A DNA stretch of 64,000 nucleotides from Plotosus lineatus (Eukaryota; Chordata; Actinopteri; Siluriformes; Plotosidae): NCBI GenBank assembly GCA_024760905.1, contig CM045733.1, positions 16,167,501 to 16,231,500 on the forward strand. The letters are read 5' to 3'. Within the stretch, counting starts at the first letter, position 1. Each line of letters begins with the position of its first letter. Positions 39,701-42,700 of the stretch are shown here, piece after piece. The translations under genes and the position numbers were made by a program. Under the pieces are notes generated by a model. It searched no databases. It was not told the DNA's origin and saw nothing but the letters and a program-made list of their open reading frames with translations.

Positions 39701-42700
39701 TCCTTCACACGTGTGACAAACAGGAAGTATGGGAACAGGAAGTATGGGTACGGTTCAGCTCCCTCCATTCCAATGGGAGGCTAGCGGGGCGGGATGTTGG
39801 GAGACACCCAATGAGAGAGCAACTCGCACATTGTTTGAATTTTTCAATGGTGTGTTTGGCACTTTTCGTAAGAAAAGGTTTTTTCGTATTCAGAGGGTGA
39901 AAATTTAGGAAAATGTTTTCCGTAACCCGGATTTCTCGTATTCAGAGGTTTTGGTAAGCAGAGGGCCGACTGTAGATCATTAGACACCTGAAAAGGAATG
40001 CTTGCAAAGTCATTACAAGGAGAAAATGTTGTGTGTGTGTGTGTGTGTGTGTGTGTGTGTGTGTATTATGGATTTTGGATGTGAATTGAACTCCACCATA
40101 AGCAATAAAAAAACATACTGTACCATCTGAGGCAAGGAGAAATCACTAAATAAAATTTCTATGGATCAAATATGAAATAAAGTTCCTCTTCAGATAAAAT
40201 TTTGGCAAAAATTAGCAAATAGAAGATTGCTGTATTGTTAACGGAAATATTCAAGGATATATTTATTAGTATATAAGTTATTAGTAATCATATGCAGTTT
40301 GCTAGAGGTCATTTGAGCTACACACCTTTAATACTTTCAGATTTGGCTCCATAGCTGGTAATGTGGCAAAAACAATTAATAAATAAGAATAGTGTTAATA
40401 CTTTGTTTCTTGACTGTAGAAATCCATAGAATAGTTCATCAGGTGATTTAGCATAAGCCTAAATGATTTGTGTGGTTCCTGTCATTAATAACAGCTGAAT
40501 AGGACTTTGTGACATCACAAGTTTTCATCCGACTCGAAAAGTAAAAAACCTGAGCCTGTAGAACTGTCGGCATTGTCTAATGGTGTCTGTCTTCCTTTCG
40601 GCTTTTTCCTTTTTACTCGGGAGTCGCCACAGCGAATCATCTGATTCGCACGTCTGATTTGGCATAGGTTTTTTTTTAACGTCGGATGCCCTTCCTGTCA
40701 CAATCCTTTTAGCAAGGGACAGAAAGACGCTGACGGCTTTGAAGCTACTCTTTACGAAAGTCAGCAATGGTTCTTTTACATGCCTCTCACCATAGACAGT
40801 GACAGACATGGCCCGCCTTTGCTAACCCAGTTAGCCGCACTGGGGGGGCAGTGACAACCTTATGGAGCGTGGGACTCGAACCCCCAACCTTTGAATCAGC
40901 GATCCAGCGCCCTATACCACTAGACCACCACTGCCCCGGCATTGTCTAATGGTGTAATGTTGCAAAATTTTGTTTGATTCTGTTCACACATCATGAAGAA
41001 GTTGGGCTTTTAATTTTTTTAATTTATGTCATCATAATTCTGTTTCCTGTCTGAACAGCTAAATTGAAATTGCAGCTGAGTAGAAAACATGAAATTTACG
41101 ATTACTGTTTTGTTTACAGTTCCTGTTTTGTTTGCTTTTACTTTTCCTTACATTATCTCTTAAGGAGAAGAAAAAAACACAATTAATTTTAAAAAGTTGG
41201 CTGTTGCAGTACAAGTGCGGAAGATTTGTGCAGTTATTTATTTCACATTGTCACATTTTTATATTTAATATTCCCTTAAATGGCTATCTATTCTTTATTC
41301 CAAAAGATCAATTTCAGGGTGAAATATAGACAGTAGCTCTAAAATTAACACTGTTTTCCCCCCAGAATCGATATTATGCGAGAGATATACTAAAAGTTCG
41401 AATTAAGAACAACTGAGGCCGATGTCTGTTTTTAGCCAGTTCTTCACCACTTAAATGTCAATTCCATTTAGAGTTTCAACATACACGATTTAAGTTTGAA
41501 TAGTGTACATCATGTAGCATAGACTACTATTAAACCTCCAAAGTGAAATTGTGTGATAAATTTGTTTCCAAGGTTACAGCAGAAGAATAATGAGAGGATT
41601 ATAGCTTTATTATCATACATATTTACTGTAGTCTGTGTGAAGCTTGATGCTGCATTCTGGTATTGGTTATATAGCAAAGGTGGAAAAATAAGTGAGCAAC
41701 TATACTGAAGTGACAGAATCAGCAATCATGTGAATAGATAATGAGAAGTGAAACATCCTATAAATAACCAAAACGTATTATTAGCTAGAATTTGCCTAGC
41801 ACAGCTAGGTTAGCTACTAGTGACTGGTGTCTAATTGGAGGTCAATATAGCTTAATTATAACTAGCAAATTAGCCAAAATTACCCCATAAAATGTTTTTT
41901 CATCACTTATAAGGAAATGCTTAATTTTATTAAACTTTTTTCCAGGATATAAGAACATTTTATGACATAGCAAACCAGTAAATTATCCATATTTGAATGC
42001 ACACAGATATATGGAGGTCCATTTCCACCACTGGTTGGTTAGTAAGTCATAATTTTGAGATTACTAAGTAGTATTGTAACACCTAGCATCGCATAATTAT
42101 GACTTGGCTATCTGATAATTCTGACTTACCAACTCAGAATTATGACTCAGTGTATCGTGGTTATGACTTACTAACTCATGATTATTGATTTACTAATTAA
42201 TAATTGAAATTTTGAATCTTATACAGTATTTATGAATTATTAACCCATAATTATGACCTAGCATTTTGTAATTTTGTCTAGGGGCAGTGGTGGTCTAGTG
42301 GTATAGGGCGCTGGATCGCTGATCCAAAGGTTGGGGGTTCGAGTCCCACTCTCCACAAGGTTGTCACTCTCCCCCCCAGTGCGGCTAACTGGGTTATCAA
42401 AGGCGGGCCATGTCTCTCACTGTCTATGGTGAGAGGTTCATGTAAAAGAACCATTGCTGACTTTCGTAAAAGAGTAGGCTGCAAAGTCGTCAGCGTGTTT
42501 CTGTCCCTTGCTAAAAGGGTTGTGACAGGAAGGGCATCCGACGTAAAAATCTCTGCCAAATCAAACGTGCGAATCAGATGATTCGCTGTGGCGACTCCCG
42601 AGTAAAAGGGAAAAAGCCGAAAGGAAGACAGACATTTCGTAATTTTGTCTTAACATCACATAACAATGACTTAGCTGTTTCATAATTATGACTAACAAGC

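Follow-up and report, generated by a model that had tools for sequence, protein, structure and literature searches.

A tRNA-headed SINE of Plotosus lineatus with a tail matching both ends of an RTE-type LINE

We analyzed a stretch of 64,000 nucleotides (nt) from the Plotosus lineatus assembly GCA_024760905.1 (contig CM045733.1, positions 16,167,501 to 16,231,500 of the forward strand), referred to below as the window. The window contains multiple copies of a short interspersed element (SINE), named SINE-A, and one full-length long interspersed element (LINE) of the RTE type. The tail of SINE-A is composed of a segment of the LINE 5' untranslated region (UTR) followed by the LINE 3' end. Sequence comparisons indicate that SINE-A is likely a transfer RNA (tRNA)-headed SINE, with an internally deleted RTE-type LINE making up its 3' third. 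Its head and body would have taken the place of the predicted ribozyme end in such a mini-LINE.

SINE-A and its bipartite tail

The SINE-A copy under study consists of a tRNA-like head, a body, a short linker and two LINE-derived segments (Table 1). SINE-A is about 350 base pairs (bp) long. Matches to the Rfam family RF00005 exceed the gathering score in three SINE copies of the window and also in the genome SINE loci L097, L102 and L116 (33.6 bits). ARAGORN called no tRNA gene in the window. Judged by its head, its shortness, its copy number and its target-site duplications, SINE-A is a tRNA-derived SINE.

The resident LINE is about 3.16 kb long, and the stop codon of its open reading frame (ORF) lies 35 bases short of the element end. 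When the pieces of the ORF were searched separately, they matched an endonuclease (PF03372) and a reverse transcriptase (PF00078). The order of the two domains, the small size and the very short 3' UTR classify the element as RTE-type. Among the 120 matches listed for the endonuclease piece, most of the named relatives are from fishes, and hagfish and Hydra are also present. Some of the listed relatives carry the name craniofacial development protein 2, which we take to mark RTE endonucleases.

Both LINE ends are recognizable in the tail of SINE-A. In a BLAST comparison within the window, SINE positions 42516-42576 match LINE positions 59231-59290 at 80.3% over 61 columns, and SINE positions 42571-42626 match LINE positions 62249-62298 at 83.9% over 56 columns. 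The second segment begins within the last codons of the ORF (the stop ends at 62279) and includes part of the short 3' UTR. When the tails of six window copies are combined into a consensus, its alignment score is 68 with the LINE 5' end and 67 with the LINE 3' end. None of 2,000 shuffled sequences reached either score; the shuffled maximum was 33 and the best score within the ORF was 26. The original prediction, that the tail joins LINE 5' UTR bases to the LINE 3' terminus, is borne out by the two matches and the shuffles, and the window BLAST found its coordinates correct within a few bases. The 5' UTR match also persists at the level of consensus sequences. A 40-copy SINE consensus and a 30-copy consensus of the LINE 5' UTR share 52 identities in 63 columns.

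The two LINE-derived pieces are joined at GCGAATCA/GATGATTCGC. The seam contains a near repeat of six bases, which reads GAATCA in the SINE and on the LINE 5' side and GAAGCA on the LINE 3' side. The short form of the junction is found in six window copies (42284+, 24542+, 532+, 40937-, 51278+ and 7641-) and a longer form in one (49578-). The longer form suggests that the short junction was derived from it through a deletion between GAATCA and GAAGCA, though the two forms may also have arisen independently. Two further features of the junctions were observed. The junction of the SINE-A copy under study, at 42569-42586, consists of two perfectly inverted 8-base repeats around a 2-base spacer. 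In the copy at 49578-49305, the junction contains a perfect inverted repeat of seven bases (CTTCCAT/ATGGAAG), along with 18 bases that have no match at either end of the LINE.

The tail is not constant within the family. Five window copies have the same head and body and another tail, indicating that tails have been exchanged within the SINE-A family. This alternative tail is presumably LINE-like. In a tree of head and body sequences, which has low support and is built from short pieces, RTE-tailed and other-tailed copies interleave. Two unusual arrangements are also found in the window. In the copy at 18772+, the body is followed by the LINE 3' end and the 5' UTR segment is missing, which looks like an internal deletion. 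At 35180-35690, the 5' part of a SINE is fused directly onto the 3' part of a 5'-truncated, internally deleted LINE. A template switch within one insertion was considered for this fusion and rejected, as no target-site duplication was found around it.

Genome searches covered the assembly of 1.33 Gb in 30 contigs. In the search for SINE-A, 40 of 3,615 first-look candidates were scored and 41 matches were listed. Forty of these, including the window copy, were aligned; the omitted match is 88% identical and located in L097. The junction is found with at most small changes in all 40 aligned copies, which are the best matches to a query containing the junction and thus a biased sample that does not give the family-wide share of the junction. 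Direct repeats of 10-24 bp bound 34 of the 40 copies, a few of them within simple repeats. A junction pattern allowing 0-30 bases of play matched the genome 22,416 times (11,222 + 11,194), as a pattern only, and the reversed control had 0 matches.

The LINE 5' end, its predicted ribozyme and deleted copies

The segment of the 5' UTR shared with SINE-A is an integral part of the LINE. A 41-base pattern spanning the 3' half of the predicted ribozyme and the 5' UTR has 3,127 exact copies in the genome, and its reversed control has 0. The first 30 copies listed, all on contig C1, were fetched. Twenty-eight of them continue to LINE nt 539 or beyond, into the ORF; one of the 28, L067, is without LINE nt 788-1507. 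The remaining two are L064, which runs into N, and L073, which is internally deleted. A related LINE on contig L055, 72% identical over 2.7 kb, has the same 5' UTR core beside the same ORF, with its 3' end missing. At 59238-59257, 19 of 20 bases are identical between the resident LINE and the L055 LINE.

L055 corresponds to NZ_JASJAV010000043.1, which is filed under a metagenome-assembled genome (MAG) of Breoghania. It contains an animal-type RTE LINE followed by an inverted LINE-like stretch, and is evidently animal (host) contamination of the MAG. Relatives were also looked for in viral contigs, where three DNA patterns gave 0, 7 and 47 stretches. BLAST with the SINE and the LINE gave only three weak matches there, of 29-35 bases, and a protein query of the viral contigs confirmed no relative.

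A match to the type-P1 twister ribozyme (RF03160) is located at the 5' terminus of the resident LINE. At permissive thresholds, its E-value is 1e-10 in a search of the short stretch and 2.1e-8 in a search of the whole window. The pairs of P2, P3 and P4 are complete (13/13) in both the window LINE and the L055 LINE. Between the two elements, five of these pairs are changed on both sides and two on one side. The cleavage step is, as we assume, U|A at positions 5-6 of the model, which places the predicted cut within one base of the LINE start as set by the target-site duplication. In 25 of the 30 fetched copies, the LINE starts with AATGCA[GC], at the predicted cleavage base. The bases upstream of the start vary by locus, with provisos for four copies. 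L065 and L066 are apparently one duplicated locus, and both lie within another copy of the LINE. In L075 and L082, part of the LINE's own 5' end is repeated in the flank.

No such ribozyme is found in SINE-A. Its LINE-derived part starts at the base corresponding to LINE position 59231; the twister match extends to 59238, so that at most its final eight bases are included. The SINE-A copy under study, the remainder of the window outside the LINE, and the SINE loci L097, L102 and L116 contain no twister match. An exact genome-wide pattern of the SINE body followed by the ribozyme core within 30 bases had 0 matches. The counterpart pattern, the SINE body followed by the 5' UTR core, is found in 33 of the 40 fetched SINE copies. 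The linker of SINE-A was considered as a remnant of the ribozyme 3' half and rejected, since 1,663 of 5,000 shuffled sequences score as high.

Free-standing LINE copies that have retained little more than the two ends are present in the genome. A pattern of the ribozyme core followed by the LINE 3' end 60-90 bases on found three places (L094, L095 and L096), with a control of 0, and a fourth deleted copy, L073, was among the 30 fetched LINEs. In LINE numbering, the breakpoints are 133/3098 in SINE-A and 133/about 3087 in the window copy 49578-. Two of the four deleted LINEs break close to the breakpoints of SINE-A. The original prediction proposed a search for a free-standing deleted LINE with the junction of the SINE. 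Deleted LINEs do exist, with junctions that are similar to that of SINE-A and not identical. Their sequences classify L073 and L095 as comparable to short internally deleted elements (SIDEs), in that a predicted 5' ribozyme end and the LINE 3' end are inserted as a unit.

Table 1. Positions of SINE-A copies, the RTE-type LINE and related elements. Positions refer to the window unless a locus is named; LINE nt, numbering of the LINE.
Feature	Position	Strand	Remarks
SINE-A copy under study	42280..42633	+	direct repeats flank at ~42263-42279 and 42634-42650 (12 bp identical; one mismatch allows a longer repeat)
tRNA-like head of SINE-A	42284..42357	+	Rfam RF00005, 33.6 bits, exceeds gathering score
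SINE-A body	42358..42501	+	common to copies bearing another tail
Linker of SINE-A, 14 bases	42502..42515	+	between body and LINE-derived pieces
SINE-A segment from LINE 5' UTR	42516..42576	+	counterpart LINE 59231-59290
SINE-A segment from LINE 3' end	42571..42626	+	counterpart LINE 62249-62298; portion distinct from 5' UTR begins 42577
SINE-A copy, same junction	24542..24894	+	17-bp target-site duplication
SINE-A copy, same junction	532..878	+	18-bp target-site duplication
SINE-A copy, same junction	40584..40937	-	19-bp target-site duplication
SINE-A copy without its 5' part, same junction	51278..51520	+	
Older SINE-A copy, same junction	7319..7641	-	84% to window consensus; no target-site duplication of at least 8 bp found
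Older SINE-A copy, longer junction	49305..49578	-	18 bases matching neither LINE end, then LINE 3' part from AGATGGAAGCAG; no target-site duplication found
Head and body of SINE-A with different tail	16862..17085	-	
Head and body of SINE-A with different tail	58841-59057	-	
Head and body of SINE-A with different tail	9437-9654	+	
Head and body of SINE-A with different tail	34313-34477	-	
Head and body of SINE-A with different tail	1030-1242	-	
Resident RTE-type LINE, full length, ORF broken	59158..62314	+	target-site duplications 59143-59157 and 62315-62329 (15 bp)
LINE 5' UTR segment present in SINE-A	59231..59290	+	
LINE 3' segment present in SINE-A	62249..62298	+	last ORF codons and part of short 3' UTR
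Type-P1 twister ribozyme match	59154..59238	+	RF03160, 50.9 bits, LINE 5' terminus; predicted cleavage 59158|59159
Type-P1 twister ribozyme match, L055	L055:76-155		63.9 bits, E 2.6e-14
Deleted LINE L073	LINE nt 2-203 + 2679-3149		14-bp target-site duplication; twister 50.6 bits; from 30 fetched copies
Deleted LINE L094	LINE nt 2-72 + 3021-3149		16-bp target-site duplication; twister 35.1 bits
Deleted LINE L095	LINE nt 2-146 + 3101-3149		17-bp target-site duplication; twister 55.7 bits
Deleted LINE L096	LINE nt 2-134 + 3085-3149		no target-site duplication found; twister 43.8 bits

A probable origin of SINE-A

The likely descent of SINE-A from an internally deleted LINE can be pictured as follows. 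The LINE RNA would be freed from its transcript at the predicted 5' twister ribozyme, and new copies would begin at the cleavage site. Reverse transcription, or a deletion in DNA, may occasionally skip most of the ORF and produce a small, still mobile element composed of the ribozyme, the 5' UTR core and the 3' end. This mini-LINE would then be fused behind a tRNA head and body, a step in which the ribozyme would be replaced and the downstream 5' UTR core and 3' end kept. The LINE protein would mobilize SINE-A via the common 3' end, and the retained 5' UTR core may, as a guess, provide a second binding or processing site. The component parts and the candidate intermediates are observed in the sequence; we infer the order of events, template jumping, mobilization by this LINE family and the role of the 5' UTR core. 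Bearing on such mobilization, SINE and LINE share their 3' ends and have target-site duplications of a similar kind. Two zebrafish LINEs of the L2 type are documented to recognize their cognate 3' tails strictly (PMC4176376).

Several observations weigh against this origin. No element with a tRNA head and a ribozyme was found by the exact-sequence pattern, so the fusion step is not seen directly. The twister scores of the window LINE and the L055 LINE, 50.9 and 63.9 bits, are both under the RF03160 gathering score of 67.2, and the ribozyme is therefore missed by an Rfam scan at that threshold. P1 pairs at 0/4 positions in the window LINE and 3/4 in L055; once a LINE copy is inserted, the host DNA beside it supplies the 5' strand of P1. 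No target-site duplication was found for L096, and L094 is cut within the 3' part of the ribozyme, so the whole motif is not kept. The similar total length of L094-L096 was imposed by the search pattern, which in part accounts for the resemblance of L095 and L096 to the SINE; only the position of the split is informative. Finally, the 3' end of young SINE copies has six extra bases (five together, one apart) compared to the resident LINE. Its terminus is of the ACAG type, with a terminal repeat unlike that of the resident LINE, and an exact pattern located the SINE-type 3' end on just two LINEs, L131 and L132. The extra bases, the different repeat and the rarity of SINE-type LINE ends indicate that the resident LINE belongs to the parental family without being the exact parent. 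The original prediction, which treats the resident LINE as the matched partner, is corrected on this point.

At L131:1205-1566, a truncated LINE 3' fragment has the SINE-type 3' end and the ACAG repeat. By its sequence, this is perhaps a tail exchange in the opposite direction.

The two LINE parts of SINE-A may instead have been acquired separately, if an older SINE had the 5' UTR segment as its body and later swapped its tail for the RTE 3' end. The variation of tails in the family, with five window copies bearing the same head and body and another tail, fits this history, as does the presence of the SINE-type end on the LINE fragment L131. The copy at 18772+, in which the 5' UTR segment is missing between the body and the LINE 3' end, would also fit, though it looks like an internal deletion. 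Separate acquisition is nevertheless unlikely, given that in the window the RTE 3' end accompanies the 5' UTR segment in the SINE copies that have it and that two-ended mini-LINEs with close breakpoints are present in the genome. The original prediction also named the possibility that the 5' segment is an independent repeat inserted into both the LINE and the SINE. The segment is indeed very common. However, it is located inside the 15-bp target-site duplications of the resident LINE. Of the 30 fetched copies, 28 have the LINE ORF adjoining it, as does the 72%-identical relative on L055, which makes an independent repeat hardly credible.

Other explanations concern the LINE itself. Its precise 5' ends could be set by a transcription start site, with the twister match an inactive relic. 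All twister scores are under the gathering threshold, but the pairs are kept with two-sided changes between LINEs that are 72% identical, and 25 of 30 copies begin exactly at the predicted cleavage base. According to a 2020 review, RTE 5' ends have conserved twisters that are truncated yet catalytically competent (PMC7761336). An inactive relic is thus quite improbable. The LINE RNA could also close via pairing between its 5' and 3' ends (GCGAATCA with TGATTCGC), and this pairing would determine where the deletion falls. The inverted repeats at the junctions, of eight bases with a 2-base spacer in the short form and seven in the longer copy, speak for such pairing. Shuffling does not distinguish it from chance: perfect complementarity of at least eight bases between the LINE ends occurred in 96 of 1,000 shuffles, and the duplex energy was reached in 24 of 200. 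The pairing was consequently rejected as a cyclization signal. In addition, the L055 relative, whose 3' end is missing, has GCAGAACA at the 5' motif, and L094 and L073 break elsewhere. It is very unlikely that such pairing determined the deletion.

The origin of SINE-A may exemplify a broader process, which we put forward tentatively and regard as somewhat less probable than its negation. The ends of RTE-type LINEs could serve as a kit for founding SINEs. The predicted 5' twister would release a deleted copy as short as 190 bp from any transcript, a conserved 5' UTR core together with the 3' end would suffice for the LINE protein, and a tRNA head would take over the making of the 5' end. All stages, from the full-length LINE with its ribozyme through the ribozyme-bearing mini-LINE to the headed, ribozyme-free SINE, would coexist in this genome. 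Since a ribozyme in this position would cut off the head, it would have to be lost and the 5' UTR core kept.

Comparison with known SINEs and deleted LINEs

Bipartite RTE tails are already in print, and the architecture of SINE-A is therefore of a known type, of which it is a new instance. As the original prediction stated, tails holding both LINE ends have been reported; they are described in passages on AviRTE-mobilized SINEs and hagfish SINEs and in a review table of RTE-ended elements. The SINEs mobilized by AviRTE include ManaSINE1, ManaSINE2, GymnSINE, BuceSINE and MeloSINE (PMC4844689). Like SINE-A, they have a head followed by a tail of partial 5' UTR and 3' UTR of the RTE partner, and ManaSINE1 is tRNA-headed. 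They differ from SINE-A in LINE, head and host, and the passages on them do not mention a ribozyme. The hagfish families SINE1-1_EBu, SINE2-1/1B_EBu, SINE2-9_EBu and SINE2-10_EBu (PMC7245038) also resemble SINE-A. Their tRNA (or 7SL) head precedes parts from the 5' UTR and the 3' end of an RTE LINE, and in the tRNA-headed families a body lies between the head and the LINE parts. The birth of these SINEs was modeled as an internal deletion followed by chimera formation (PMC7245038). The deleted LINE is a step of the model in the hagfish passages, which do not mention a ribozyme, whereas here deleted LINEs with target-site duplications are present in the same genome as the SINE. Reportedly, non-autonomous LINEs composed of only the 5' and 3' regions were named by Kojima in 2018, as cited by others, as a source of SINE bodies.

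A review table lists RTESINE1, MAR4, Bov-A2 and RTE1-N1_LA as a 5' end of RTE or BovB joined to a LINE tail (PMC3747384). They contain both ends of one RTE-type LINE, and in make-up they are closest to L073 and L094-L096. Unlike SINE-A, they have the LINE 5' end instead of a tRNA head, and the review passages do not mention a ribozyme. The R2 SIDEs of Drosophila are short, internally deleted LINEs in which a 5' ribozyme is joined to the LINE 3' end, and a template jump or recombination was proposed for them (PMC3414825). In contrast to the elements here, their ribozyme is of the hepatitis delta virus (HDV)-like type and not a twister, R2 is not an RTE element, and they have no RNA polymerase III (Pol III) head. 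The statement on truncated twisters in the 2020 review agrees with the location of the ribozyme at the LINE 5' end here; the sentence refers to the RTE superfamily and does not cover SINEs or deleted derivatives. Among the papers listed by full-text literature searches, mostly as titles, we recognized none dealing with a twister in RTE-tailed SINEs. Similarly, the series from a ribozyme-bearing LINE through a ribozyme-bearing mini-LINE to a ribozyme-free SINE in one genome was not met in the literature passages and search results.

The birth of SINEs has mostly been argued from consensus sequences. Here, one genome contains the autonomous LINE family, four mini-LINEs, of which three have target-site duplications, and a SINE with the same two LINE ends. 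The edge of the predicted ribozyme offers a simple reason for where the LINE part of SINE-A starts, and the retention of the 5' UTR core hints at a candidate second function besides recognition of the 3' tail.

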